A DNA stretch of 64,000 nucleotides. Source: Shinella yambaruensis (lineage in GTDB: Bacteria > Pseudomonadota > Alphaproteobacteria > Rhizobiales > Rhizobiaceae). This document shows positions 45,173-58,792 of the stretch, piece after piece (the first letter of the stretch is position 1; every line of letters starts with the position of its first letter). Both the position numbers and the translations under genes were made by a program. The DNA is taken from contig NZ_JALJCK010000014.1 of the NCBI RefSeq assembly GCF_022899355.1, forward strand, positions 1-64,000. Direction: 5' to 3'. The notes beneath the pieces are model-generated. The model ran no database searches, was not told the DNA's origin, and saw nothing but the letters and a program-made list of their open reading frames with translations.

Positions 45173-45257
45173 GCCCAGATGGCGGAATTGGTAGACGCGC
45201 AGGTTTCAGGTACCTGTGCCGCGAGGCGTGGAGGTTCGAGTCCTCTTCTGGGCACCA
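45173..45257 (+). tRNA. tRNA-Leu (anticodon CAG)
   Basis: 85 nt including an encoded CCA. The acceptor stem GCCCAGA pairs with TCTGGGC. The D-loop region is GGCGGAATTGGTAGACGC. The anticodon stem CAGGT/ACCTG encloses the loop TTCAGGT, giving anticodon CAG. A long class II variable arm follows, and the T arm contains GGTTCGAGTCC. Its 3' end is the probable attachment site for the adjacent P4-type integrase. Confidence 0.97.
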
Positions 45258-45368
45258 TTTCCTAGTTTTTCAACGTCCAAGGACGTTTGCTAGTGTCTTT
45301 TGGCATCCACAAAATTTGCTGGTACGATTGCTGGTATCGGAATCACGGTACCAACGACGCACCAGCAC

Positions 45369-46172
45369 ATGGCGACGGACAGACCCGGTGATGCGGCGCT
45401 CCGATCCATCAAGCCGCGCGACAAACAATTCAAGCTGTCGGACGGTGGCGGCCTGTTTCTGCTCGTAACCCGAACGGCAGTCGGTTGTGGCGACTTGCTT
45501 ATCGTTTTTGGAAGTCGCCAGAAGCAACTCGCTCTCGGTTCATATCCGGCAACGCTGCTTGCCGATGCGCGGGAAGCACGCCGGAAGGCGAAAGGGCTGC
45601 TTGAGGCCGGCATCAATCCGGGCGCAGAAAAGAAAGAGCGCAAGGTCGCCGTAAAGGCTGCCAGAGAGGCAGCGGAGAATACATTTGCGGCCGTCGCGGA
45701 AAAGTATCTGACCAAGGCGGAGAGAGAAGGTCGAGCGGCCATCACGATGAGCAAGGCGCTATGGCTGCTGATCGACCTGACAAAGGGTTTGGCGGATAAG
45801 CCGGTGCATGAGGTCGCACCGAAGGACATTCTCGCCGTGCTTCGCCCTGTCGAAGCCAAGGGGAACTACGAAACGGCCCGGCGCTTGCGATCGACAATCG
45901 GCCGCGTCCTGCGGTTTGCCGTTGCCAACGGTTGGGCGGAACGGAATGCGACAGCTGATCTCAAGGGTGCGCTGACAGCCCCCAATGTCCGGCATCGTGC
46001 TGCAATCGTGAAGCCGGAACCGCTCGGTACGCTGATGCGCGCCGTCTATTCGTGGGAAAGCGGCCAACCGACCACCATCGCGGCGCTGAAGCTGATGGCG
46101 CTTCTCGCCTTCGGCTTTGGCGAAGTCGATTGCCGCACCAAGACACAACCATTCAGTGCATTGCCTGCCTGA
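45369..46172 (+). pseudogene. P4-family tyrosine integrase, truncated before the catalytic domain
   Basis: 267 codons from ATG 45369. The N-terminal arm-binding DUF4102 domain (about 8-90: ALRSIKPRDKQFKLSDGGGLFLLVTR, LALGSYPATLLADAREARRKAKGLLEAGINP) and the core-binding SAM-like domain (about 100-210) are present. The catalytic domain stops right after its first helix: TIAALKLMALLAFGFGEVDCRTK, where the active-site Arg region LRPGELR would follow, then a short unrelated tail to a stop. The R-H-R-Y residues are absent (P4 integrases are about 400 aa), so recombination activity is lost. It is 112 nt downstream of tRNA-Leu. Confidence 0.88.
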
Positions 46173-46180
46173 TCTGCGTC

Positions 46181-46210
46181 ATGCATTCTTCAAGCGCTGG
46201 GGGAATGCAT
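46181..46210 (+). promoter_or_regulatory. Inverted repeat overlapping the cas3 start codon
   Basis: ATGCATTC (46181-46188) and GAATGCAT (46203-46210) are perfect complements around a 14-nt loop. The right arm contains the first two bases of the cas3 ATG, and the GGGGG likely ribosome-binding region lies at the loop edge. It could be a protein-binding site or an RNA hairpin limiting cas3 translation. Confidence 0.45.
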
Positions 46211-48449
46211 GGAATTTTATGCACATTCTGGTCGTGATCCGGGCAAATCCGACTGGCAGACCTTGAAGGAGCATTTGTTTGCCGTTGCACGGCTGGCGGG
46301 AGAGAAGGCTCGTCCGTTCGGACTTGAGCGAGCAGCGTTTATCGCAGGGCTTTTTCACGATCTCGGCAAATACAACCCGGCTTTTCAACGGCGCCTGGAC
46401 GGCGCGACGGAGCCTGCCGATCATTCCACGGCCGGCGCGCAGGTTTTGCGCGATCTTGCCAGGGGGAACGATGCCACCATGGCACAGGTCGTCGGCTACG
46501 GCATCCTCGGGCACCATGCAGGCCTGCCCGACAGGCTGGACGGACCCGGCACCTTCGATCATCGCATGAAGCAGCCGCAGGCAATCGATCCGGTCTGGAT
46601 GGAAGAGCTGCATGTCGAGATTTCCGGCCTCGTGCCCGACATGATTCAACGCTTTCCCACCGACCGGGCCGGCCATGCCTTCTCCTGGGCCTTCATGGGA
46701 CGCATGCTGTTCTCGACGCTGGTGGATGCGGATTTTTCGGACACCGAGCGCTACTATGTGACGCTCGGCGAGAAGAAGGCGGACCGCGACTGGCCGGCGC
46801 TGGCCGCGCTGATCGATGATTTCACCGCGCGTTTCGATGTGTACACGACCGCGCTCTCGGGACGGGAGGGGGCGTTGAATTCCTTGCGCCGTGAGGTGCT
46901 GGCCCATGTGCGTAGAGGGGCCGAACGGGAGCCGAGCCTGTTCACTCTCACGGTGCCGACCGGCGGGGGCAAGACGCTGTCCTCCCTCGGCTTCGCGCTG
47001 GATCATGCCCGTCGGTACGGGCACCGCCGGATCATCTATGTCATTCCCTTCACCAGCATCATCGACCAGACGGCGGCAATCTTTCGCTCCGTGCTCGGAG
47101 AGGACAATGTCCTCGAACACCATTCCTCCATCGAGGAAGAATCGTTCGACGCGAAGCAGCGTGAGCGCAAGGATAAATTGAAACTGGCGATGGAGGATTG
47201 GGCGGCGCCGGTCATCGTGACGACGACCGTACAGCTTTTCGAAAGCCTGTTCACGGCCCGCCCGTCACGGGCGCGCAAGCTGCACAATATCGCCGGTTCC
47301 ATCCTGGTTCTGGACGAGGCGCAGACCTTGCCGAAGGCCTTGCTGATGCCGATCATGCGGGCGCTGGAGGAACTGGCGCGCAACTACGGCTGCACGATCG
47401 TCCTGTGCACGGCGACACAGCCGGCGCTCGGCAGGCGTCCGGAATTGCCCGGCGGCTTGCCGTTGGAAGGCCGGGAACTGGCGCCGGACCCGCCGGGTCT
47501 GGCAACGAGACTTGCGCGCACGCGTATCGTCCATGCCGGTGATATGGACGACGGCGCACTGCTGGATGCCCTTGCCGGTCATGAACAGGCGCTGGTCATC
47601 GTCAACAGCCGGCGCCATGCGCTGGAACTCTACCGGAAGGCGTCCGAGGCCGGGCTGGAGGGAATCGTCCACCTGACGGCACGGCAATATGCGACGCATC
47701 GCCGGCGGATTCTGGCGGATGTGCGGGACCGCCTGAAGGACGGGCGGCCCTGTCGCCTGATCGCCACCAGCCTGATCGAGGCTGGAGTCGATGTCGATTT
47801 TCCCGTTGCCTGGCGGGCCGAGGCAGGCCTGGACCAGATCATACAGGCTGCCGGAAGGGTCAATCGGGAAGGCAGGCGCGACCGTGAAAGCAGTATCGTT
47901 ACGGTCTTCAATCCACCCGCCCACCGGCCTCCTGCCGAAATCCGCGGCCTGATCGGCGATATGAAGCGGATCATCGACAAGCACGCCGATCTCACCTCGC
48001 TCGCCGCCGTGGAGGATTATTTCGGCGAGGTCTACTGGCGTATGGGCGAGGGCATGGACGGCAAGAATATCCTCGACCGGTTTGCGCTGAGCGGCCGTAC
48101 GGGCTGCCATTTCGATTATCGCACGGTCGGCCGGGATTTCCGCATGATTGAAAGCGGTCTGGCGCCGGTGATCGTGGCACTGGACGAGGGGGCAAAAGAA
48201 GCCGTTGATCAACTGGGAGTGGAGGCGATTCCGTCTGGAATGTTGGCGCGGAAGCTGCAATCCTCGGTAGTGTCGATGCCTCCGAAAGCGAGGGACCTGC
48301 TGATCAGGAGCGGCCATGTCGCGTTCGCTGCGCCGCAATGGAGGGGAGACCAGTTTGCTGTTCTGCAGACAGCCAGCCTGTACGTTCAGGAGGTAGGTCT
48401 GCTTTGGGAGGATGCGGGCTATCTCGGCGTGGAAGACATGATTTTCTAG
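46209..48449 (+). CDS. cas3: Type I CRISPR-associated helicase-nuclease Cas3 (HD + helicase)
   Basis: A 746-residue fusion of the Cas3'' HD nuclease and Cas3' SF2 helicase. HD residues are visible: His22 in KEHL, His50-Asp51 in LFHDLGKYNPAFQ, His72 in DHSTAG and His102-His103. The helicase has Walker A VPTGGGKT (about 248-255), Walker B DEAQ (369-372), motif III CTATQPALG and motif VI QAAGRVNREGRRD. Cas3 is recruited by Cascade to unwind and degrade target DNA. The start MEFYAHSG is typical of I-C. Base composition is less GC-rich than in flanking core genes. It is the first gene of the interference operon; all key motifs look intact. Confidence 0.97.
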   Translation: MEFYAHSGRDPGKSDWQTLKEHLFAVARLAGEKARPFGLERAAFIAGLFHDLGKYNPAFQRRLDGATEPADHSTAGAQVLRDLARGNDATMAQVVGYGILGHHAGLPDRLDGPGTFDHRMKQPQAIDPVWMEELHVEISGLVPDMIQRFPTDRAGHAFSWAFMGRMLFSTLVDADFSDTERYYVTLGEKKADRDWPALAALIDDFTARFDVYTTALSGREGALNSLRREVLAHVRRGAEREPSLFTLTVPTGGGKTLSSLGFALDHARRYGHRRIIYVIPFTSIIDQTAAIFRSVLGEDNVLEHHSSIEEESFDAKQRERKDKLKLAMEDWAAPVIVTTTVQLFESLFTARPSRARKLHNIAGSILVLDEAQTLPKALLMPIMRALEELARNYGCTIVLCTATQPALGRRPELPGGLPLEGRELAPDPPGLATRLARTRIVHAGDMDDGALLDALAGHEQALVIVNSRRHALELYRKASEAGLEGIVHLTARQYATHRRRILADVRDRLKDGRPCRLIATSLIEAGVDVDFPVAWRAEAGLDQIIQAAGRVNREGRRDRESSIVTVFNPPAHRPPAEIRGLIGDMKRIIDKHADLTSLAAVEDYFGEVYWRMGEGMDGKNILDRFALSGRTGCHFDYRTVGRDFRMIESGLAPVIVALDEGAKEAVDQLGVEAIPSGMLARKLQSSVVSMPPKARDLLIRSGHVAFAAPQWRGDQFAVLQTASLYVQEVGLLWEDAGYLGVEDMIF

Positions 48450-48508
48450 CTGAATCCGCTCTGCAGCGGTGTTCTCATGCGTTTTCGAATGTTTTTGGGA
48501 GGGCGCCA

Positions 48509-49177
48509 ATGACCTACGGAATTCGCCTGAAAGTCTGGGGTGATTATGCTTGTTTCACGCGCCCGGAGATGAAGGTCGAGCGTGTCTCCTACGATGTCAT
48601 GACGCCTTCCGCGGCGCGCGGCCTGCTGGAGGCGATCCATTGGAAGCCGGCGATCCGCTGGGTGATCGATGCGATCCATGTGCTGCAGCCCATCCGCTTC
48701 CAATCGATCCGGCGCAACGAGGTCGGCCACAAGGCGCCGGCGGGCAAGATCAGGTCAGCGATGAAACGCGGCGATCTGCAGGGGTTGAACCTGCTGGTGG
48801 ACGAGGATCGCCAGCAGCGTGCCGCCACCGTGCTGGTGAAGCCGGCCTATGTGATCGAGGCGCATTTCGAGCTGACGAAGAGGGCCGGTCCCGATGACAA
48901 CGAGGGCAAGCATCTCGATATTTTCAACCGTCGTGCGGCGCGGGGTCAGTGTTTCCATCAGCCTTGTCTCGGCACGCGGGAATTCGCGGCGCATTTCGAG
49001 TTGCTCCCGCCCGATGCGCCGCTGCCGCAGGCCATCGGCGAGAGCCGCTATCTCGGCTTCATGCTGTTCGACATCGATCACGCGACGGACGGGCGGCCGT
49101 CGCTGTTCTTTCGCGCCGCGCTGGAGAATGGCGTGGTGAGGGTTCCGTCGCCGAGTTCCCCGGAGGTTCGGCGATGA
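48509..49177 (+). CDS. cas5c: Cas5c (Cas5d), type I-C pre-crRNA processing subunit
   Basis: A 222-residue RAMP protein. The N-terminal YGIRLKVWGDYACFTRPEMKVERVSYDVMTPSAARGLLEAIHWKP is the Cas5d signature, with the G-rich and ferredoxin-like core continuing to IRFQSIRRNEVGHKAP. The C-terminal RYLGFMLFDIDH segment follows. In type I-C systems, which lack Cas6, this subunit cuts pre-crRNA and caps the 5' handle. GGGAGGG precedes the ATG, 59 nt after cas3. It overlaps cas8c by ATGA. Confidence 0.96.
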   Translation: MTYGIRLKVWGDYACFTRPEMKVERVSYDVMTPSAARGLLEAIHWKPAIRWVIDAIHVLQPIRFQSIRRNEVGHKAPAGKIRSAMKRGDLQGLNLLVDEDRQQRAATVLVKPAYVIEAHFELTKRAGPDDNEGKHLDIFNRRAARGQCFHQPCLGTREFAAHFELLPPDAPLPQAIGESRYLGFMLFDIDHATDGRPSLFFRAALENGVVRVPSPSSPEVRR

Positions 49178-50943
49178 CGATCCTTTCCGCGCTTGCACGG
49201 GCCTATGATCGCCTGCCGAATGCGCCGCCATTCGGGTATTCTTCGGAAAAGATCGGCGTCGTCGTCGGCCTGAACCGTGATGGATCCGTCGCCAGCGTCA
49301 CCGACTGGCGCGATGGCGAGGGCAGGAAGGCGCGGCCTCGGCCGATGCCGGTGCCGGTGCCGCAGCCCGTGAAGCGCACGGCAGGCATCGCGCCGAACTT
49401 TCTCTGGGACAAGACCTCTTATGCCCTGGGGGTGACGGCTGGCGAGGGGCGACGCACCGCAGACGAGCACCGGGCTTTCGTGGAACGACATCTGGGGGAC
49501 TTAGGGGAAAGTGACGATCCCGGTCTGCGCGCTTTCCTGTCGTTCTTGACGGCGTGGTCGCCGGAACAGTTCACGGTTTCGCCCTGGCAGGACGACATGA
49601 AAGACCAGAACGTGGTTTTTGCGCTGGAAAGCGACCGGCGCGCGAACATCTTCCTGCACGACCGTCCCGCGGCCAGGACCCTATGGGAGCGCCTGTCGAG
49701 CCGGGGAAGCGGCAGGGAGGAAATCTGCCTCGTTCGCGGAGAGCCCGGAGCGGTCGCGCGCCTTCATCCATCGATCAAGGGTGTCTGGGGCGCGCAATCT
49801 TCCGGCGCGGCGCTTGTCTCCTTCAATCTCGACGCCTTCACCTCCTACGGCCACGAACAAGGTGACAATGCTTCCGTCTCCGAGGCAGCGGCCTTCGCCT
49901 ATACGACGGCGCTCAACCGGTTTCTGGAAAGGGACAGCGGACACCGCATCCAGATCGGTGATGCCTCCACGGTATTCTGGGCGGATGCGTCCGAGGCGGG
50001 TGCGGCGGAGGAGGCGGAGATGCTGTTTCCCGTCTTCTTCGATACCGTCGATCAAGAGCAGGAAGCAGAAGAGAAGATCGGGGCGAAACGTATCCGCGAG
50101 CGGCTGGAGCAGATCCGCAAGGGGGTGCCGCTGGAGGAAGTGGAGCCGAACCTCGGCAAGGTGCAGTTCTACGTGCTGGGACTTGCGCCCAATGCCGCCC
50201 GGCTCTCCATCCGTTTCTTCCATTCCGGCAATTTCGGCGAACTGACCCGGCATTACCAGCAGTTCGTCTCCGACATGCGGATCGAGCCGCCGCCGCGCGA
50301 GCCTTTCCCGCCGCTCTGGCGCTATCTTCGCGAAACCGCCGTGCTGGGCAAGAGTGAGAATGTCACGCCGAACCTGGCCGGGGAGTGGATGCGTTCGATC
50401 CTGTCGGGCACGCATTATCCGCTGACGCTCCTGTCGTCGGTCCTGACGCGCATCCGCGCCGATGGCGAGATCAATGTCCTGCGCGCCGGCATTCTCAAGG
50501 CTTTGCTCATCCGTAATTTCAAAAGCAAGGAGGCATCCGTGGCGCTCGATCCGGCAAATACGAACAAGGGCTATCTGCTGGGGCGGCTGTTTGCCGTTTA
50601 TGAGCACATCCAGGCTGCGGCGCTCGGTCCGAAGGTCAACGCCACGATCAAGGACAAGTTCTATGGTTCGGCCTCCGCGCAACCGCGCAAGGTGTTCCAC
50701 CTGCTCGAAAGCGGTTCTGCCAATCATCTGTCCAAGGTCGGCAAGCAGAAGCCCGGCTACAAGGTCGTTCTGGAAAAGCGGGTCGGCGCCATCATGGAAC
50801 TGATGAGCCCCGGTGCGGACCCTTTCCCGGCTTCGCTTTCTGCCGAGGACCAGGCGCTTTTCGGCCTCGGCTACTATCATCAACGCAACGAGTTTTTCAA
50901 AAAGCCGGCTGAAGCCGCTGTTTCGAGGGAGACTGACGCATGA
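49174..50943 (+). CDS. cas8c: Cas8c (Csd1), type I-C Cascade large subunit
   Basis: A 589-residue Csd1-family protein: MTILSALARAYDRLP at the start, NFLWDKTSYALGV near residue 88, the internal PNLGKVQFYVLGLAPNAARLSIRFFHSGNFGEL block, and a C-terminal helical region ending with LFGLGYYHQRNEFF. Cas8c recognises the PAM and triggers Cas3 recruitment. It overlaps both cas5c and cas7c by four bases. The last 134 codons follow a strong internal ribosome-binding site and probably also yield Cas11c. Confidence 0.96.
   Translation: MTILSALARAYDRLPNAPPFGYSSEKIGVVVGLNRDGSVASVTDWRDGEGRKARPRPMPVPVPQPVKRTAGIAPNFLWDKTSYALGVTAGEGRRTADEHRAFVERHLGDLGESDDPGLRAFLSFLTAWSPEQFTVSPWQDDMKDQNVVFALESDRRANIFLHDRPAARTLWERLSSRGSGREEICLVRGEPGAVARLHPSIKGVWGAQSSGAALVSFNLDAFTSYGHEQGDNASVSEAAAFAYTTALNRFLERDSGHRIQIGDASTVFWADASEAGAAEEAEMLFPVFFDTVDQEQEAEEKIGAKRIRERLEQIRKGVPLEEVEPNLGKVQFYVLGLAPNAARLSIRFFHSGNFGELTRHYQQFVSDMRIEPPPREPFPPLWRYLRETAVLGKSENVTPNLAGEWMRSILSGTHYPLTLLSSVLTRIRADGEINVLRAGILKALLIRNFKSKEASVALDPANTNKGYLLGRLFAVYEHIQAAALGPKVNATIKDKFYGSASAQPRKVFHLLESGSANHLSKVGKQKPGYKVVLEKRVGAIMELMSPGADPFPASLSAEDQALFGLGYYHQRNEFFKKPAEAAVSRETDA
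50539..50943 (+). CDS. cas11c: Cas11c small subunit, from an internal start in cas8c
   Basis: Within cas8c and in the same frame, AAGGAGG (50527-50533) lies five bases before GTG 50539-50541, codon 456. Translation from here gives 134 residues starting with the VALDPANTNKGYLLGRLFAVYEHIQ segment and forming the helical C-terminal domain. In type I-C systems the small Cascade subunit is known to be made by internal initiation in cas8c, and its position and length agree. The Shine-Dalgarno match is stronger than that of most genes in this operon. Expression is inferred, not shown. Confidence 0.7.
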   Translation: MALDPANTNKGYLLGRLFAVYEHIQAAALGPKVNATIKDKFYGSASAQPRKVFHLLESGSANHLSKVGKQKPGYKVVLEKRVGAIMELMSPGADPFPASLSAEDQALFGLGYYHQRNEFFKKPAEAAVSRETDA

Positions 50944-51890
50944 CCGCGATTGCCAACCGCTACGATTTCGCGCTGATCTTCGAGGTCGTCAACGGCAATC
51001 CCAACGGCGATCCGGATGCCGGCAACCTGCCGCGGCTCGATCCGGAGACGAACAGGGGGCTGGTGACGGATGTCAGCCTCAAGCGCAAGATCCGCAATTA
51101 TGTCGACCTCGCCCGCCACGGTGAGGACGGTTTCCACATCTATGTCGAGGAAGGCGCAATCCTCAACCACAAGCACCGGCAGGCCTATCGGGCAATCCGC
51201 GAGGGCGACCCGAAGGTCGAGAAGGACGCCAAGCTGAATCCGAGGGACGATACGGAGGCGAAGGCCATCACCGCCTTCATGTGCCGGAACTTCTTCGATG
51301 TGCGCACCTTCGGCGCCGTCATGTCCACCGGCGTCAATGCCGGCCAGGTGAAGGGGCCGGTGCAAATGACCTTCGCGCGCTCCGTCGAGCCGATCCTGCC
51401 GCTCGAGATCTCGATCACCCGCATGGCCGCCACCAACGAGGCTGAAAAGAAGCAGAAGGCCGAGGGCGACGACTCCAGCGAACGCACCGACAACCGCACC
51501 ATGGGACGCAAGCATATCGTTCCCTACGGTCTTTACGTCGCGCACGGCTTCATTTCCGCCAAGTTCGCGGAGCGCTCGGGCTTTTCGGAAAGCGACCTTT
51601 CCCTGTTGTTCGAGGCCCTTGCGACCATGTTCGAGCACGACCGTTCTGCCGCGCGCGGCGAAATGGCGACGCGCAGGCTGGTGGCGTTCAAGCATGACAA
51701 CGCGCTCGGCAACGCGCCGGCGCATGCCCTGTTCGAGCGCATCCGTATCGGCCGCAATGTGGAGGGCGAATTTCACGTCATCGACCAGCGGCTGGACAAT
51801 CTGCCGCCGGCGAGAGCCTTTTCGGATTATATCGTGACGATCGATCGTGACGGTCTGCCCGAAGGTGTAGAGGTTCTGGAATTGCTTTGA
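50940..51890 (+). CDS. cas7c: Cas7c (Csd2), type I-C Cascade backbone
   Basis: A 316-residue RAMP protein that coats the crRNA. The N-terminal YDFALIFEVVNGNPNGDPDAGNLPRLDPETNRGLVTDVSLKRKIRNYV is the Csd2 signature. KAITAFMCRNFFDVRTFGAVMSTG and GQVKGPVQMTFARSVEPILPLEISITRMA continue the RRM core with thumb and finger. The C-terminus reads HVIDQRLDNLPPARAFSDYIVTID. Length is normal and no defect is visible. It overlaps cas8c by ATGA; the decayed cas4 begins four bases after its stop. Confidence 0.97.
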   Translation: MTAIANRYDFALIFEVVNGNPNGDPDAGNLPRLDPETNRGLVTDVSLKRKIRNYVDLARHGEDGFHIYVEEGAILNHKHRQAYRAIREGDPKVEKDAKLNPRDDTEAKAITAFMCRNFFDVRTFGAVMSTGVNAGQVKGPVQMTFARSVEPILPLEISITRMAATNEAEKKQKAEGDDSSERTDNRTMGRKHIVPYGLYVAHGFISAKFAERSGFSESDLSLLFEALATMFEHDRSAARGEMATRRLVAFKHDNALGNAPAHALFERIRIGRNVEGEFHVIDQRLDNLPPARAFSDYIVTIDRDGLPEGVEVLELL

Positions 51891-51893
51891 ACC

Positions 51894-52190
51894 ATGGCCA
51901 TCGATGACGGTGACGAGGGGCAGGATGCAGGAGAGCCCATTCCACTCTCTGCCCTTCAACATGCCATCCATTTGTCTGCGCCAGGCGGCGCTGATCCATG
52001 TCGAGAGGTTTTAGGCCCGACAATCGCTTCACGGCGGAAGGCAACGTGCTGCATGCCGTGGCCGATAGGGGCGGATCGCGACGGGTGGGAGGGCTTCGGT
52101 GCGTCATGTCGTTGCCCGTCGCATCGCGTCGCCTCATCAGGCGCAAGCCGAACTGCATGAGATCATCGTGGGGATAGTCGCTAGGAGCCA
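51894..52190 (+). pseudogene. cas4: cas4 remnant, frameshifted and 3'-truncated
   Basis: The region directly after cas7c starts like a type I-C Cas4: MAIDDGDEGQDAGEPIPLSA followed by LQH. Homology then switches frame: ICLRQAALIHVERF (from about 51977) ends in an in-frame TAG. It resumes in a third frame as DNRFTAEGNVLHAVADRGGS and continues RRVGGLRCVMSLPVASRRLI to about 52160. The first cluster cysteine region and the whole RecB-like nuclease core are missing. Downstream sequence ends at the stop codon of the convergent reductase (52194). cas1, cas2 and repeats, which normally follow, are absent. Confidence 0.85.
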
Positions 52191-52193
52191 CCG

Positions 52194-53231
52194 TTAGCCG
52201 GCTATCGGCGGGCTAAGCCGCGCAAAGCCCTCTTGCCGGCGATAGGGGAAATGGGGATAGGGCGCAGTGACGGCGCTGGCTTCATCCAGCTTTGCCACCT
52301 GTTCGGGTGTCAGGCTCCAGCCGACCGCGCCGAGGTTCTGGCGAAGCTGTTCCTCGTTGCGCGCGCCGACGATGACGGAGGAAACGGTCGGGCGTCGCAG
52401 CAGCCAGTTCAGCGCGATCTGCGGGACCGTCTTGCCCGTTTCCTCGGCAATAGCATCGAGCGCATCGACGACGCGATAGAGGTGTTCGTCGTCCACCGGC
52501 GGGCCGAAACTTGCGGTCTCATGCAGGCGGCTGCCTTCGGGCAGCGGCGTGCCGCGCCGGATTTTTCCCGTGAGCCGACCCCAGCCGAGCGGACTCCAGA
52601 CCATCGCGCCGAGGCCCTGATCCGCACCCAGCGGCATCAGATCCCATTCGTAGTCGCGCCCGACCAGCGAATAATAGACCTGATTGGCGACATAGCGCGG
52701 CCAGCCGTAGCGATCGGCGACGGCCAGCGATTTCATGATCTGCCAGCCGGAGAAGTTGGAGACGCCGACATAGCGGACCTTGCCGGCGCGCACGAGCGTA
52801 TCGAGCGTCGAAAGCACCTCCTCGACCGGCGTGCCGGCGTCGAAGGCGTGCAGTTGCAAGAGGTCGATATAGTCGGTCTGGAGGCGGCGCAGCGCATCCT
52901 CGACCGCCCGGATCAGCCGGAAGCGGGAGGAGCCTGCGTCGTTCGGCCCGTCGCCCATCGGCAGGCCGGTCTTGGTCGAGATCAGCACCGCATCGCGCCG
53001 ACCCTTGATGGCCTCGCCAAGCACCTCCTCCGAAGCGCCGTTGGAATAGACATCGGCCGTGTCGAACAGGTTGACGCCGGCCTCCAGGCAGATGTCGACG
53101 AGCCGGCGGGCCTCGGTGGCGTCGGAATTGCCCCAGTTGCCGAAGAGCGGGCCGGAGCCGCCGAAGGTTCCGGCGCCGAAGCTGAGGACCGGCACCTTGA
53201 GGCCGGATTTTCCGAGAGGTCGATAGTCCAT
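52194..53231 (-). CDS. Aldo/keto reductase
   Basis: A 345-residue NADPH-dependent (beta/alpha)8 reductase. Active-site elements: GVNLFDTADVYSNGASEEVLG (Asp and Tyr), LISTKTGLP (Lys), YIDLLQLHAFD (His), and the C-terminal SSVIVGARNEEQLRQNLGA cofactor segment. Size and wording resemble the YajO/Tas-like general AKRs. AAGGAG precedes ATG 53231. An MFS remnant lies 11 nt upstream, so the two were probably one transport-reduction operon. Its stop marks the right edge of the CRISPR island remnant. Confidence 0.92.
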   Translation of the reverse strand: MDYRPLGKSGLKVPVLSFGAGTFGGSGPLFGNWGNSDATEARRLVDICLEAGVNLFDTADVYSNGASEEVLGEAIKGRRDAVLISTKTGLPMGDGPNDAGSSRFRLIRAVEDALRRLQTDYIDLLQLHAFDAGTPVEEVLSTLDTLVRAGKVRYVGVSNFSGWQIMKSLAVADRYGWPRYVANQVYYSLVGRDYEWDLMPLGADQGLGAMVWSPLGWGRLTGKIRRGTPLPEGSRLHETASFGPPVDDEHLYRVVDALDAIAEETGKTVPQIALNWLLRRPTVSSVIVGARNEEQLRQNLGAVGWSLTPEQVAKLDEASAVTAPYPHFPYRRQEGFARLSPPIAG

Positions 53232-53242
53232 GGGAATGCTCC

Positions 53243-53520
53243 TTAGTGAACGGGATTGCAGGAAGGTGAGAGGGCCACGCCCTTGCTCACCCAGACGGCA
53301 ATCAACGCGGTGGCGATGGCGAATAGCGGAAACAGCGCAGCCGTGATCGGCACCACGGCGAGGCCCGGCCCTTTGTCGATGACCACGCCTCCGGACCATG
53401 CGCCGGTGGCGTTGCCGAGATTGAAGGCGCCGATGTTGAAGTTGGATGCAAGGCTCCGGACCGCGCCTTCGGCCTTGGACAGCACCCACATCTGCAAGGG
53501 CGCGACGGGCATGAATGGTA
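53243..53520 (-). pseudogene. MFS transporter, C-terminal remnant
   Basis: About 92 codons matching the last quarter of an AraJ/YdhP-type MFS permease: VAPLQMWVLSKAEGAVRSLA, then NIGAFNLGNATGAWSGGVVID and two hydrophobic helices to the stop. No homologous sequence precedes it. Upstream codons in the frame (to 53593) are unrelated, and the plus-strand GNAT gene follows. Two helices and no gating loops mean it cannot transport. The missing 5' end (about 300 codons) indicates a deletion between here and the GNAT/LysR genes. Confidence 0.75.
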
Positions 53521-53618
53521 TCCGATGATGTTCCTTTGCCCGGAAGATAGACGCTGCGTGTTGGATGAAGTAGCCTGCGCTTAGGAATATCATTCATGAA
53601 TTGAATTCAAAGGATGCC

Positions 53619-54096
53619 ATGGAACTCACGCTTGAAAAATTCGGTCCGCGAGACTTCGCCGACTATTTCCGGCTGGCGAGCGACCCCAAGGTCATGGCCA
53701 TGATCACGGAGCGGGCCATTCCCGCCGAAGAGGCGCGGCGCAACTACGAAGAGCTTCTGGCCGATAATGCCCTCCATCCGGAGCTCGGCCACTTCCGCGT
53801 CCTCGATGAGCGAGGAACGTTCATCGGTCTGGGCAAGCTGGCGGTGAAAGCAGCGGCGGCGGATCAGGCCGAGCTGGGCTACATGCTCGCCCCGGAATAT
53901 TGGGGCAAGGGAATAGCCAGTCGGATCGCCAGGCTTTTGGTGGCGCGGGCCGAGCGGCAATCCGCATTGCGAAGCCTCTTCGCCATCATCGATCCGGCCA
54001 ATGTTCCGTCGAGGAAAATCCTGATCAACAATGGTTTCGTCTCAAGGGAAGGATTTCGACGGCCTGCCGGGCGAAGTGCTGGAAAGGACATGGTAG
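53619..54096 (+). pseudogene. GNAT acetyltransferase with a 3' frameshift
   Basis: ATG 53619 has AAGGA five bases upstream. Residues 1-about 140 are a RimJ/RimL-type GNAT: ELGYMLAPEYWGKGIASRIARLLV is motif A and SRKILINNGFVSREG is the motif B end. At about 54048-54054 the frame should shift by one base to give DFDGLPGEVLERTW and TAG at 54094-54096, the expected family C-terminus. As written, the first frame runs on into the LysR gene with unrelated residues. Either a sequencing error or a recent mutation is possible; since most of the fold is intact it may retain activity. Confidence 0.7.
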
Positions 54097-54099
54097 GAC

Positions 54100-55005
54100 A
54101 TGGGAAGCCCGCATCACAACCGGTCCGGCGAGATGGAAGTGTTCGTGCGCGTGGTCGAGCTCGGCGGGTTCTCGCCTGCCGCGCGCGCCGAGCGCATGAC
54201 GCCTTCGGCGGTCAGCAAGCTGATCGCGCGGCTGGAATCCCGGCTCGGCGCGCGGCTGCTCAACCGTTCGACACGCCAGCTCCAGCTCACGCCGGAGGGC
54301 TGCGCCTTCTATGAGCGGGCGACGCGCATTCTTGCCGATCTGGAGGATGCGGAACGGGTGGCCGGCGCCGGCGAACAGGCGGTGGGGCGCGTCCGCATCA
54401 ACACCAGCGCCTCCTATTTCAACCATGTCCTCACGCCCGCGCTGCCGGCGTTTCTGGCGCGTCATCCGGGCGTCACGCTCGATATCGTTCAAACCGATGC
54501 GGTGGTCGATCTCCTGGCGGAGCGCACCGATGTCGCGATCCGCGCCGGGCCGCTGAAAAGTTCCAGCCTCGTCGCGCGCAAGCTCGGCGAGACGGCGCTG
54601 ACCATCGTTGCCGCGCCGTCCTATCTGGAACGCTGCGGCGAACCGCGCTCCATTGCCGATCTCGAACGGCACAATCGCCTCGGCTTCGGTTATGCCCGCG
54701 CGGTCGATGGCTGGCCGCTTCGGGAAGACGGCGAAACCATCGTCGTGCCGGCGACGGGCCGCGTGCAGGCGAGCGACGGCGAGGGCCTGCGCCATCTGGC
54801 GCTGGCCGGCGTCGGCCTCGCCCGCCTTGCCGCCTTCACCGTGCGGGAAGACATCGCCGCCGGACGGCTGGTGCCGGTCCTCCGCCATCTCGATGCCGGG
54901 GAGACGGAGGCTTTCCATGCCGTCCATGTCGGCCAGGGCGGACCGCTGCCCTCACGCGTGCGGGCGCTGCTCGACTTTCTCACGGAGCACGGCAAGGTGT
55001 CCTGA
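54100..55005 (+). CDS. LysR-family transcriptional regulator
   Basis: A 301-residue LTTR. The HTH is EMEVFVRVVELGGFSPAARAERMTPSAVSKLIARLESRLGARLLNRSTRQLQLT (about 11-65), and the periplasmic-binding-like effector domain runs from about 92 to 297 (VGRVRINTSASYFNHVLTPALPAFLARHPGVTLDIV). It starts four bases after the expected GNAT stop. LTTRs of this group usually lie next to the MFS/AKR genes they control, so the decayed MFS-AKR pair on the other strand is a likely former target. Confidence 0.9.
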   Translation: MGSPHHNRSGEMEVFVRVVELGGFSPAARAERMTPSAVSKLIARLESRLGARLLNRSTRQLQLTPEGCAFYERATRILADLEDAERVAGAGEQAVGRVRINTSASYFNHVLTPALPAFLARHPGVTLDIVQTDAVVDLLAERTDVAIRAGPLKSSSLVARKLGETALTIVAAPSYLERCGEPRSIADLERHNRLGFGYARAVDGWPLREDGETIVVPATGRVQASDGEGLRHLALAGVGLARLAAFTVREDIAAGRLVPVLRHLDAGETEAFHAVHVGQGGPLPSRVRALLDFLTEHGKVS

Positions 55006-55014
55006 TCCGGCGCG

Positions 55015-55494
55015 TCAGCCGCGTCGGGCCGCCTCGATCGCGGCGACGTCGATCTTCTTCATCTCCATCATCGCCTCGAAGGCGCGTTTTGCCTCGGCGC
55101 CGCCGGCGGCCATTGCCTCGGTCAGCGTGCGCGGGGTGATCTGCCAGGAGATGCCCCATTTGTCCTTGCACCAGCCGCACACGCTCTCCTGGCCGCCATT
55201 GCCGACGATGGCGTTCCAGTAACGGTCCGTCTCCTCCTGGTCGTCCGTGGCGATCTGGAACGAGAAGGCTTCGCTGTGCTTGAATGTCGTGCCGCCGTTG
55301 AGGCCGATGCAGGGAATGCCGGCGACGGTGAAGTCGACCGTCAGCACGTCGCCGGCCTTGCCGGACGGGAAGTCGCTGGGCGCGCGGTGGACCGCGCTCA
55401 CGATGCTGTCGGGAAACGTCTCGGCGTAGAAGTTGGCCGCAGCCTCGGCATCTCCGTTGTACCAGAGGCATATGGTGTTCTTGGCGATCGTCAT
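55015..55494 (-). CDS. VOC-family protein (PhnB / 3-demethylubiquinone-methyltransferase-like)
   Basis: A 159-residue vicinal-oxygen-chelate fold protein: ICLWYNGDAEAAANFYAETFPDS at the N-terminus and YWNAIVGNGGQESVCGWCKDKWGISWQITPRTL in the second half are the hallmarks of the PhnB-like group. Members are dimeric metal or small-molecule binders; the reaction is unknown. It converges on the LysR gene with a 9-nt gap and is followed upstream by an SRPBCC gene on the same strand. Confidence 0.9.
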   Translation of the reverse strand: MTIAKNTICLWYNGDAEAAANFYAETFPDSIVSAVHRAPSDFPSGKAGDVLTVDFTVAGIPCIGLNGGTTFKHSEAFSFQIATDDQEETDRYWNAIVGNGGQESVCGWCKDKWGISWQITPRTLTEAMAAGGAEAKRAFEAMMEMKKIDVAAIEAARRG

Positions 55495-55532
55495 TTGCTT
55501 TTCCTTTCGTTTTCCGGTCGTAAGCGCCGAGC

Positions 55533-55976
55533 CTACTGGTTGATCTCGGGCACGACGAGCTTCGCGAGCTTGTCCAGCGAGTCCTGCCAGCCGAGATAGC
55601 AGGCCTCGGCGGGGATGATATCCGGCACGCCCTGCTGCTCGATGTGCATTTCCGTGCCGACCGACACGGCCTTGAGAGTCACCGTGACCGTCATCTCGCC
55701 CGGCAGGTTGGGGTCGTCGAAACTGTCGGTGTAGACGAGGCGCTCGCCCGGAACGAGGTCCAGATAGGTGCCGCCGAAGGCATGGCTCTCGCCCGTCGTG
55801 AAGTTGCGGAACGACATCCGGTGACGGCCGCCGACCTTCGCATCCAGCTCGTGGACGGAGCAGAGGAACCCATAGGGCGGAAGCCAGCTTGCGACCGCGT
55901 CCGGTTCGAGGAATGCGCGATAGAGTTTTTCCGGTTTGACGGCGATGACACGGTGCAGACGGATCGTGCTGGGCAT
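55533..55976 (-). CDS. SRPBCC/AHSA1-family protein
   Basis: A 147-residue START/Bet v1-like protein: IRLHRVIAVKPEKLYRAFLEPDAVASWLPPYGF, then GGRHRMSFRNFTTGESHAFGGTYLDLVPGERLVYTDSF and a C-terminal long helix (GWQDSLDKLAKLVVPEI). This is the Aha1-type domain common in rhizobial stress clusters, often beside a VOC protein as here. It binds hydrophobic ligands or partners; the function is unknown. The ATG at 55976 has GAGAG seven bases upstream. The frame stays open upstream but without homology. Confidence 0.88.
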   Translation of the reverse strand: MPSTIRLHRVIAVKPEKLYRAFLEPDAVASWLPPYGFLCSVHELDAKVGGRHRMSFRNFTTGESHAFGGTYLDLVPGERLVYTDSFDDPNLPGEMTVTVTLKAVSVGTEMHIEQQGVPDIIPAEACYLGWQDSLDKLAKLVVPEINQ

Positions 55977-56139
55977 GATGCTCTCCTGTGGTTCGGTTTC
56001 GTCGTGTGTTCGGTCGGGTGCCCGCCTCCTCTGTCGGGGCACCTTGCGGGCAGCCAATCGTTGCCCGATGCAGTTAAGACGAACGAAGCAGAATGAGTCC
56101 GACATGACATCGGAATAAATCTGACGTCGGCCGATTCCT

Positions 56140-57291
56140 TCACCGGCTCGCGATATGATGCGGATATTCAAGCTGCATGGCGACCACGTTGGCGGTGCCG
56201 GCGCCATAGCGCGCGGCGATCGTGTCAAGCGTGAGGTCGAGCGCATCGGCCGGCTTGCGGTCGGGAAAGGTCGATACGCGCTGCTCCTCCGGCCGGTCCG
56301 AATCCGCCCGGTCGGGCACGATGCGGATGCCGTTCATGGTCACTACCGTGTCCGGAGAGCCGGCATAGCTCGTCGCATGCGAACGGTAGGTTCGCGACCA
56401 TGCGTCGGCAACCAGCGCCAGCGACACCTCGTCCATGCCCGGCTCCAACCGGATGCCGAACTCTTCCCGGTTCCAGACGGCCATTCTGTTGGCAAGCACC
56501 GTCGTCGCGAACGGCCGGGTGAGCCGGAATGCAGCGCTCGCATGCCGCGCGTCCCATTGCTCCAGGCCGAGATCGTGGGCGACCGCCTCCGCCTTCGCCC
56601 GGCCGGCAATCGCCTCGATCAGCGTCAGCATCATCGGCAGGGAGGCGGAGATGCCGGTGGTCGTCGCCACGCCCTCGTCCGCGACCATCCGCCTGTCCGC
56701 GACATATCGGATCGTCGGGCTGCGCTTCAGCATCTCGGCCAGATAATACCAGTGTGTCGTCGCACGCTTGCCGTCGAGCAGGCCCGCCGCTCCCACGACC
56801 TTCGCACCGGCGCAGATGCCGATGACCGTCGCGCCTTTCTCCGCCTGCGCCCGGAGCCAGGCGACTACCGCGGGATCGTCGTCGTGGCTCATGGCGGGCA
56901 CGATGATGAAGTCGGCGCCTTCGGGATGCGCGGCATCGAACTCAGCGATCGTCGCATCCGGTTCGACCGCGAGCGCCGGATAGAGCTGCACCGGGCCGGC
57001 ATCGGTCGCCAGCATCGTCACATCGGCTACGTCGGCGCGTCGCAGGATGCTGGTGGGCACGAGATAGTCGGTCGTCTCGGTGGCGTCGTTGATGCCGATC
57101 ACCGCGACCAGCGGACGTTCACGCTTCGACGGCCGGAGCGAAGCGAGCATGGCGTCCGCCTCTTCCTGCGGGACCAGCGGCGCGACCGCCGCCGCCGTTG
57201 CTGCCGGCAGGCTGAGCAGCCAGCCCCCGAAACCTGCCATCGACAGGATGATCAAGCCGATACCGCACCAGATCAGACAGGCTTTCGACAT
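56140..57291 (-). CDS. Membrane-anchored DJ-1/PfpI-family protein
   Basis: A 383-residue protein. One N-terminal hydrophobic helix (ACLIWCGIGLIILSMAGFGG) acts as an anchor or uncleaved signal and places the rest in the periplasm. Two consecutive DJ-1/PfpI-like regions follow. The first has the nucleophile elbow VIGICAGAKVVGAAGLLDGKRATTHWYY with an intact Cys and His. The C-terminal part continues with a second domain. Similar proteins are found beside GlxA-type AraC regulators, as here. GGGAGG lies before ATG 57291. The reaction is unknown. Confidence 0.82.
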   Translation of the reverse strand: MSKACLIWCGIGLIILSMAGFGGWLLSLPAATAAAVAPLVPQEEADAMLASLRPSKRERPLVAVIGINDATETTDYLVPTSILRRADVADVTMLATDAGPVQLYPALAVEPDATIAEFDAAHPEGADFIIVPAMSHDDDPAVVAWLRAQAEKGATVIGICAGAKVVGAAGLLDGKRATTHWYYLAEMLKRSPTIRYVADRRMVADEGVATTTGISASLPMMLTLIEAIAGRAKAEAVAHDLGLEQWDARHASAAFRLTRPFATTVLANRMAVWNREEFGIRLEPGMDEVSLALVADAWSRTYRSHATSYAGSPDTVVTMNGIRIVPDRADSDRPEEQRVSTFPDRKPADALDLTLDTIAARYGAGTANVVAMQLEYPHHIASR

Positions 57292-57414
57292 GGGTATACC
57301 TCCCGGGCAGGAGCGGAAACGCCTCCGAGCTGTCCGTCCTTCCGCCGCGTCAGGTTTGAATCCTAGCAGCGGGAGCATTTGGCAGGAATGACAAAGATAT
57401 GGTAATTTCCGCCA

Positions 57415-58386
57415 ATGCACCACGTTGTCTTCATCGTCTATCCGGGCTTCGAGCTGCTCGACGTCTCGGGGCCGGCATCTGTCTTCAACGGCGCCAATCG
57501 CGCTCTGAGCTGGCGGGGAAAGCCGGCCTTCTACAAGGTCGTGCTCGCATCGTCACAAGGCGGCGCCATCAAAAGCAGCAGCGGCCTCGCGATGGAGACC
57601 CGGCCGGTTGCCGGGCTTCGATCGGCGGAGACCCAGTCCGTGCTGGTCGCCGGGGCCGAGCGCGAACCTCTCCTGCAGGCGATGGCGGATCCGGCCATCG
57701 GCAAGGCCCTGCCGCAACTGGCGGCGACGGCGGATCGGTTCGGCGCGGTCTGCACCGGCGGCTTCGTGCTGGCCGCGCTCGGACTTCTCGACGGACATCG
57801 CATCGCGACGCACTGGGATTCCTGCGAGCCCTTCACGAAGGCCTTTCCCAAGGTCGTTGTCGACCCTGACTCGCTCTATGTCGTCGACGGCAGGCTCTGG
57901 ACATCGGCGGGTGTGACCACCGGCATCGACATGGCGCTGGCGATGGTCGCGCACGATCTCGACGCGGCGATTGCCGGCGAGGTCGCCAAGCGGCTGGTGC
58001 TCTATGCGCGGCGGCCCGGCTACCAGTCGCAGTTCAGCCCGGTTCTCAAGGCGCAGGTGAAGGGCGACAGCCCGTTTGCCGACCTGATCGGCTGGATTCA
58101 GTCGAACCTCGGCGCATCGCTGGACGTGCCCTCGCTCGCCGCGCGCGCGGGCCTCAGCGAACGCACCTTCCATCGCAGGTTCGCGGCGGCGACCGGCGAG
58201 ACGCCGGCCCGCTTCGTCGAGACCGCCCGGCTCGACACCGCGCGCATGCTTCTTTCACGCGGGCTGTCGCTGAAATCGGTCGCGGCTGAGGTCGGCCTCT
58301 TCCCGCCCGCGCGTCTCGCCGAAGCCTTCGAGCGCCGCTTCGGCGTCACACCGCGCCTCTTCCGCGACATGCACGCCGCGTTGTGA
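57415..58386 (+). CDS. GlxA-type AraC-family regulator (DJ-1/PfpI sensor + AraC HTH)
   Basis: A 323-residue regulator. Residues about 1-190 are a DJ-1/PfpI-like sensor domain (HHVVFIVYPGFELLDVSGPASVF at the start; AVCTGGFVLAALGLLDGHRIATHWDSC at the elbow). Residues about 215-320 are a double AraC HTH (VPSLAARAGLSERTFHRRFAAATGETPARFVETARLDTARMLL). It is divergent from the membrane-anchored DJ-1-like gene and probably controls it. The shared region (57292-57414) has no obvious palindrome. Confidence 0.92.
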   Translation: MHHVVFIVYPGFELLDVSGPASVFNGANRALSWRGKPAFYKVVLASSQGGAIKSSSGLAMETRPVAGLRSAETQSVLVAGAEREPLLQAMADPAIGKALPQLAATADRFGAVCTGGFVLAALGLLDGHRIATHWDSCEPFTKAFPKVVVDPDSLYVVDGRLWTSAGVTTGIDMALAMVAHDLDAAIAGEVAKRLVLYARRPGYQSQFSPVLKAQVKGDSPFADLIGWIQSNLGASLDVPSLAARAGLSERTFHRRFAAATGETPARFVETARLDTARMLLSRGLSLKSVAAEVGLFPPARLAEAFERRFGVTPRLFRDMHAAL

Positions 58387-58792
58387 GCGCTCAAAGGCGG
58401 CTTCGGAGATGCGCTGACCGATAGTTCAGGAACCGGAAGGAAACTGGCCGCTTCGGGAAGGCCAGGCAAGGACAGCAGGCTTACGCTTGTGTTCGATCAT
58501 GCAGTTGCAGTTCGAATCCCGTTCGGCATGCCATGCGGGATCCTGCGCCTGCCCCTGCCGGCACGCGCCCTTCGAGGCGATTCTCGATAGGCGGCAGCCC
58601 CTCGCGCCAATTCCCGCTCCGGTTTTCCGAAACGTCAAGAAAGCCCGGGCCTGCCGAGTTTTGTCGTCCGTGCGCAAAGCCCCCCTTCCTTTCCGGCAAA
58701 ACAGAATCTTCCCCTTGCGCCCTTGCGTGATGGGCGCGATAGGCACATAAGCCTGCAAAATAATCATTTGCCTTTTTACGGTCAGGATCATC
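58387..58792. other. Gene-free stretch
   Basis: 406 bases between the AraC gene and the HPP-CBS gene. I see no supported coding frame, strong hairpin with U-tract or long repeat. An AT-richer segment at about 58750-58785 (AAAATAATCATTTGCC) probably holds the promoter of the HPP-CBS gene. A GTTCGAATCC string near 58510 resembles a tRNA T-loop but has no tRNA around it. Confidence 0.5.

Follow-up and report, generated by a model that had tools for sequence, protein, structure and literature searches.

We analysed the first 64,000 nucleotides of contig C5 (NZ_JALJCK010000014.1) of Shinella yambaruensis, hereafter the window, which carry a type I-C CRISPR (clustered regularly interspaced short palindromic repeats) interference operon in a decayed genomic island beside a transfer RNA gene, tRNA-Leu(CAG). 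The genome is a draft of 6.87 Mb in 34 contigs with an estimated contamination of 4.4%, and was compared within a set of 21 Shinella genomes (G000, the studied strain; G002, S. daejeonensis; G007, S. pollutisoli).

An interference operon ending in a broken cas4

The operon consists of the following elements:

46209..48449, + strand: cas3 (HD nuclease and helicase), 746 aa, intact; TIGR01587 and TIGR01596 over cut-off
48509..49177, + strand: cas5c, subunit that processes CRISPR RNA (crRNA), 222 aa, intact; Pfam and NCBIfam
49174..50943, + strand: cas8c/csd1, 589 aa, intact; Pfam and NCBIfam
50539..50943, + strand: cas11c small subunit, predicted internal start in cas8c; GTG at codon 456 with an AAGGAGG Shine-Dalgarno motif
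50940..51890, + strand: cas7c/csd2, 316 aa, intact; Pfam and NCBIfam
51894..52136, + strand: cas4 stump (243 bp), frameshifted twice (+1 each) and broken off after about 80 codons

The genes cas3, cas5c, cas8c and cas7c are full length and all pass Pfam and NCBIfam cut-offs (I-C or Cas3 domain models), with the type I-C signature set of cas8c/csd1, cas5c and cas7c recognised over cut-off by TIGR01863, TIGR01876 and TIGR02589. The starts of cas8c and cas7c each overlap the preceding stop by 4 bases. Cas5c and Cas8c have I-C chains as their nearest solved relatives, and Cas3 aligns to the solved Cas3 chains 8zns/8g9u. In type I-C systems the small subunit Cas11c comes from an internal start in cas8c, according to PMC7684278; here the GTG at codon 456 coincides with the start of the match to the solved Cas11c chain 7kha_K. 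Of 80 loci compared, one was dropped for too short a cas8c frame; this position is a start codon in 79/79 relatives scored, and a Shine-Dalgarno-like motif precedes it in 78/79. The predicted internal start for Cas11c is preserved.

After cas7c the locus breaks off. Two +1 insertions lie within the first ~80 codons of cas4, tblastn found no cas1 or cas2 in the window, and the set of cas4-cas1-cas2 adaptation genes expected of type I-C is incomplete. The repeat patterns searched for are absent from the window's contig, and no array was seen after cas7c. Across the whole genome we found no I-C cas1; the sole Cas1 detected belongs to a type II-C locus on contig C15 (L002, G000:C15:21000-40931), which encodes a full-length Cas9 of 1105 aa, Cas1 and Cas2. 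In S. daejeonensis, a second Cas1 of similar score lies ~25 kb from the I-C cas1.

Such losses occur in relatives as well. We surveyed the best 80 of 159 named cas8c loci, 70 of which had room to judge and 10 of which were not judgeable: cas1 and cas2 are present in 63/70, and cas1 is lost or a fragment in 7/70 (L013, L037, L040, L061, L076, L082 and L085). In L085 cas3 is missing too, and no cas3 match was obtained on the contig of L061, which is short. In L082, L076 and L037 (Stappia taiwanensis, Pannonibacter and Pseudochelatococcus) cas1 is lost or broken and the adjacent array is kept.

The tRNA-Leu island

The surroundings of the operon are as follows:

45173..45257, + strand: tRNA-Leu(CAG), at which the island is integrated; in G009 and G012 the site is empty, the equivalent of 45257 being followed directly by that of 58609
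45258..58608, no strand: decayed genomic island at tRNA-Leu; truncated integrase, no second tRNA-end copy
45300..46172, + strand: remnant of a P4-type integrase, reduced to its Arm and central domains; homologous to the intact S. pollutisoli integrase as far as 46127
52138..56131, no strand: right part of the island, with an aldo/keto reductase, a LysR regulator, a PF06983 protein and AHSA1

In two other Shinella genomes (G009 and G012) the tRNA end runs directly into the sequence that starts at 58609 here, and the island is therefore taken to span 45258-58608. A tRNA-integrated island should sit at the 3' end of a tRNA gene and have unoccupied counterparts in relatives, and both are seen here. 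A functional integrase is missing, the open reading frame having no PF00589 catalytic domain (Pfam), and the 3' end of the tRNA was found only once in the window, where attachment sites attL and attR would give two copies. The S. pollutisoli relative of the integrase (86% identical) is intact, has PF00589 and is located at tRNA-Leu. I-C homology to S. daejeonensis spans 46179 to 52136. From 52138 onwards the island resembles that of Shinella G004, the pieces 52138-53262 and 54055-56131 of the right part being common to that genome.

A preliminary description of this DNA, made from the sequence alone, had read the locus as a tRNA-Leu, a P4-type integrase without catalytic domain, an intact cas3-cas5c-cas8c-cas7c with tight overlaps and a broken cas4, with cas1, cas2 and array missing, and had proposed that deletions removed excision and adaptation from both ends. 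The domain and repeat searches, the integrase cut at ~46127 and the cas4 cut at 52136 agree with this account. The intact cas1-cas2 elsewhere that could have overturned it did not appear; the genome's only cas1-cas2 found belongs to the II-C cas9 locus.

Two further observations concern the island's left side. In a comparison that included loci L160-L183, the tRNA-Leu(CAG) differs in its anticodon/variable arm in 5/21 Shinella (G000, G002, G004, G007 and G013) from the other 16; the variant arm was possibly brought by tRNA-Leu islands. A hairpin, CATGCATTC...GAATGCATG, lies at the left junction (46179-46212) and covers the cas3 ribosome-binding site and start.

Candidate arrays on distant contigs

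Looking for I-C repeats elsewhere in the genome, as the preliminary description had proposed, proved productive. A search of the genome for GYGTGGATTGAAA gave three spaced matches on contig C22, three on C30 and a single one on C28, and none for the reversed control. The C30 array is composed of three identical 31-nt repeats and a degenerate fourth, the C22 array of three near-identical repeats and two degenerate ones, and together they hold seven spacers of 33-38 nt. Single repeats on C28 and C11 were also considered as arrays; a repeat search around C28 gave no second copy and none was seen in the flank of the C11 repeat, and both are treated as fossils.

Folded as RNA, the repeats form a stem of 7 bp with a tail of 11 nt, UGGAUUGAAAC. 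In an alignment of 11 of the 15 chosen repeats, all of 31 nt (the four 32-nt repeats being left out), 98.7% of stem cells are paired, and the covariation score was reached by 0/500 shuffles. C22 and C30 also have a leader element of ~44 nt in common (82% identity), which matches the complete S. daejeonensis locus at 73-76% identity; the BLAST matches have E values of 6e-5 and 0.003 in a small set and 0.046 in a larger set. From the start of this element to the first repeat the distance is 176-181 nt in 8/8 arrays measured (C22 180, C30 178, WSC3-e 179, S. daejeonensis 179, G009_C17 180, G013 181, G020 180 and G007_C1 176). The flanks of C22 and C30 are mostly 84-98% identical to other Shinella. 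Judged by repeat, fold and leader, C22 and C30 are real arrays of I-C derivation.

Could the Cas5c of the window process such repeats? Among the 80 named loci, 60 have an adjacent repeat seen at least 3 times, 32 nt long in 46/60 and 31 nt in 14/60, and the tail UGGAUUGAAAC is present in 4/60. One complete I-C locus, L021, has a Cas5c 86% identical to the window's (Cas3, 61%), and its repeat, which is 31 nt long and bears this handle, departs from the C30 repeat at a single base. This Cas5c lineage therefore plausibly handles repeats of the C30 type.

Spacer targets

The protospacer adjacent motif (PAM) reported for type I-C of Pseudomonas aeruginosa is TTC (PMC7913775). In the present genome I-C-type repeats, a leader and TTC can all be found, TTC not standing at every protospacer.

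Spacer 22.2 matches a strawberry-notch gene on Mesorhizobium and Sinorhizobium plasmids, with TTC in 3/3 plasmid matches fetched; one of these three is an unannotated place on a Methylocystis plasmid, matched at 29/33. Spacer 22.3 matches dinB. Its matches comprise 178 plasmid records, of which 117 are typed as conjugative, and the 40 records listed include two that are the WSC3-e and WSD5-1 arrays themselves. The flanks of eight plasmid matches fetched for this spacer comprise five TTC (31 to 33 of 35 positions matched), two TTG and one TTT. For spacer 22.4 (n=2), TTC stands at one match and ACC at the other. Spacer 22.1 matches, at 28/35 and behind TTC, a phage distal-tail gene on the genome's own contig C18; positions 4 and 7 are among those mismatched. 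This 38.7-kb contig carries phage tail genes (L312, G000:C18:6500-13500) and is probably a phage or prophage. Spacer 30.3 matches dnaE2 (error-prone polymerase) and has one TTC flank, at a weaker match of 27/34.

A single SOS-mutagenesis cassette on an S. zoogloeoides plasmid has the dinB target at one end and the dnaE2 target at the other, ~8 kb away, so C22 and C30, which are unlinked, have this cassette as a common target. The cassette is missing from the genome studied here, save for a 66% homologue of part of it. In the phage collection, C22 gave one weak record and C30 gave 35, mostly one Gordonia phage group at E 0.8; one of the 35 is a repeat-containing contig.

A possible read-only immune system

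We consider that the operon most likely works as a read-only immune system using the C22 and C30 arrays, an explanation to which we give about even confidence. It starts from intact genes, similar repeats and leaders, and TTC-flanked spacer matches, and presumes transcription, repeat processing by this Cas5c, and cleavage. An intact I-C module (Cas3 with a Cas5c-Cas7c-Cas8c-Cas11c Cascade) would have been stranded in the decaying island when a recent deletion, from cas4 codon ~80 rightwards, removed the adaptation genes and, presumably, a local array, a deletion on the left having removed the integrase catalytic domain. Transcripts of the C22 and C30 arrays would be cut by Cas5c into crRNAs with the handle UGGAUUGAAAC, and these would guide Cascade-Cas3 to plasmid and phage DNA flanked by TTC.

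Several observations weigh against this explanation. The operon's promoter is in doubt: only ~30 bp upstream of cas3 are homologous to the complete S. daejeonensis locus, and the native promoter may therefore be lost. The arrays nearest to this operon among adjacent ones, those of S. daejeonensis and S. pollutisoli, have 32-nt repeats with UGGAUCGAAAC, and in the repeat alignment the stem pairs changed on both sides (3/7) were reached by 71/500 shuffles. Some flanks depart from TTC. Spacer 22.3 has TTG at 7/8 distinct flanks in Shinella genomes, the same-species strain WSC3-e, which shares this spacer, carries a plasmid dinB matching it at 31/35 behind TTG, and TTT stands in 7/8 flanks of the dnaE2 matches of spacer 30.3. 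Spacers 30.1 and 30.2 have no convincing target, exact scans of viral contigs for PAM plus seed gave 0 matches each for 30.1, 30.2 and 22.1, and there is no full-length perfect protospacer among the matches listed. The cas4 stump, moreover, bears no mark of relaxation (dN 0.095, dS 0.807, ratio 0.12 against S. daejeonensis).

The ancestry of the arrays points the same way. At the C22 site of G009 (L231:9420-9947) the first repeat is fused directly to an open piece of cas3 covering residues 1-175; the identity of this piece to the window's Cas3 is 56%, and no Cas3 among the compared loci exceeds 59%. Ahead of the G007_C1 leader there is a weakly matching cas2 tail (40% over 30 aa, E 5e-4). With such relics beside sister arrays, the orphan arrays look like stumps of older, divergent I-C loci, and C22 and C30 probably did not come from this operon. 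Three genomes (G009, G013 and G020) keep arrays, yet Csd1, Cas7 and Cas1 were not detectable in them.

Arrays across Shinella

Arrays of I-C type with at least 2 repeats occur in 6/21 Shinella (G000, G002, G007, G009, G013 and G020), while Csd1 and Cas7 were found in 3/21 and Cas1 in 2/21. The C30 site holds arrays with different spacers in G000, G009, G013 and G020, and the C22 site holds repeats in G000, WSC3-e and G009. In WSC3-e the flanks of the C22 site are 97.6-98.4% identical to this genome, and spacers 22.2-22.4 are present (22.2 at 29/33) without the leader-proximal 22.1. No cas locus of WSC3-e was found among its plasmid records in the plasmid collection.

Two arrays are worth describing on their own account. 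In WSC3-e (L277) one repeat-spacer unit has ~8 changes in ~65 bp, as if the array were decaying fast. At the C30-type site of G020 (L234, G020:C2:599191-600525) there are 18 identical repeats, with degenerate ones nearest the leader; this array is fresh-looking, with its cas genes undetectable.

It is conceivable, though in our judgement rather unlikely, that in Shinella the lasting, vertically inherited component of type I-C immunity is its leader-bearing arrays, which keep their places when the cas genes belonging to them are deleted, and that island-borne operons dock onto resident arrays from divergent loci, the operon of the window being one that docked and is read-only.

Comparison with other type I-C loci

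The complete I-C locus of S. daejeonensis (L015/L096) is like the window in its four interference genes (cas5c, 93% aa identity) and hidden cas11c start, and has a leader element homologous to those of C22 and C30 at the same distance. Unlike the window, it has cas4-cas1-cas2 and an adjacent array of ~52 repeats of 32 nt. This locus also carries a lone perfect 32-nt repeat ~45 bp before cas5 (L015:9258-9289), in a ~300-bp insertion that is absent from the window and S. pollutisoli, and the repeat is perhaps regulatory. As a candidate self-regulating guide it was set aside, having no convincing match in four nearby loci.

The S. pollutisoli locus (L013/L097) has interference genes ~90% identical in DNA to those of the window, and there too cas4-cas1-cas2 are gone from the locus, with no Cas1 found in the genome. 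It differs in that its breakpoint, ~28 bp after cas7, is joined to a short degenerate array, that cas3 runs to the contig end, and that its tRNA-Leu site is on another contig. Since the breakpoints are different, the two losses of adaptation look independent, and the deletions apparently are.

Farther afield, the combination of an I-C module that has lost adaptation with candidate guides in trans is already known in outline. According to PMC7913775, pKLC102-like islands of P. aeruginosa also carry I-C systems with a TTC PAM, cas1 is frameshifted in some I-C lineages, and interference is shown for P. aeruginosa I-C; unlike here, those arrays come with the island system, the island is excisable, and the matched spacers are mostly against phage or prophage. 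PMC9071438 states that plasmid cas loci less often have adaptation modules and suggests that short plasmid orphan arrays use host Cas machinery in trans. The present case is distinct from the plasmid loci described there, the operon being in a chromosomal tRNA island and the arrays at sites common to other Shinella.

Selection, timing and the possibility of a remnant

The main alternative is that the operon is a freshly orphaned remnant without present function, the adaptation genes having been lost too recently for decay to appear and the distant arrays being unrelated fossils. We regard this as a serious possibility, if one that we would not favour. It bears directly on how selection is to be read. 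Ratios of non-synonymous to synonymous change (dN/dS; NG86) are low against both S. pollutisoli (cas3 0.26, cas5c 0.12, cas8c 0.18, cas7c 0.10) and S. daejeonensis (cas3 0.16, cas5c 0.06, cas8c 0.20, cas7c 0.10). These low values do not prove retention, because the broken cas4 stump is equally constrained: its ~0.12 falls inside the range of 0.11-0.21 of working cas4 pairs (n=10; 11 loci tried, one dropped), and we set dN/dS aside as evidence of retention. The same finding implies that adaptation was lost recently relative to the divergence from S. daejeonensis. With S. daejeonensis as outgroup, the branch to the window has 119 synonymous and 42 non-synonymous codon changes and that to S. pollutisoli 107 and 54, counts that carry the same caveat. 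Between the window and S. pollutisoli the dS of the cas genes is 0.26-0.30, below the 0.41 of a neighbouring core gene, the only one compared, a contrast that bears on possible movement of cas genes between Shinella lineages.

A remnant would also fit the possibly lost promoter, the cas3 and cas2 relics of divergent loci at sister arrays, the arrays kept at the same sites by genomes without Csd1, Cas7 and Cas1, and the degenerate units in C22. Set against it is the distribution of indels, two of which fall in the 243-bp stump with no frameshift in 5682 bp of interference genes. If all of this DNA were neutral, the chance that the second indel also fell in the stump would be 243/5925 = 0.04 by plain arithmetic, and the contrast is weak evidence for later selection on the interference genes. 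The identity of the C30 repeats and the kept Shine-Dalgarno motif and GTG of cas11c likewise speak against a remnant. Retention for use with a distant array, as first proposed, has thus gained candidate arrays with similar repeats, homologous leaders and TTC, and use of the operon with such an array is plausible; the part of the proposal that took intactness as a sign of retention is not supported, the loss being too recent for dN/dS to tell.

Other explanations

It is improbable that the system still learns, with the type II-C cas1-cas2 on C15 supplying adaptation in trans. A cas9-cas1-cas2 locus does exist in the same genome, and the leader-proximal spacer 22.1, present here and absent in WSC3-e, is what a fresh acquisition would give; a loss of that spacer in WSC3-e, or its gain while cas4 was still whole, would explain this equally well. 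Type II-C Cas1-Cas2 is not known to use I-C leaders or repeats, or TTC prespacers.

More doubtful still is a turn of the operon to another role, namely gene regulation by partly matching crRNAs. The absence of adaptation genes and the 28/35 match of spacer 22.1 to the phage-like contig C18 would suit such a role. The Cas3 nuclease-helicase, needless for silencing, is however intact, and the C18 match, mismatched at positions 4 and 7, is the only one of 12 places fetched among weak matches in the own genome that has TTC with at least 62% of the spacer matched.

An assembly artefact or contamination, with the real locus continuing elsewhere, is hardly credible even for a draft of 34 contigs with a 4.4% contamination estimate: the cas locus is internal to its contig and joined on both sides to sequence common to other Shinella, the only Cas1 found is II-C, and the C22 and C30 flanks likewise resemble other Shinella.

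Discussion

If the operon does use the C22 and C30 arrays, this would be borrowing, and the locus would test whether arrays that a different I-C locus left behind can serve a Cascade. It is also a natural setting in which to ask whether a CRISPR system still pays its way once it can no longer learn. The value of the case lies in its testability and in a loss that is both recent and recurrent: the loss is recent enough to be dated against strains of the same species, and cas1 loss recurs in related loci (7/70). As candidate guides and targets can be named, use in trans is directly testable.

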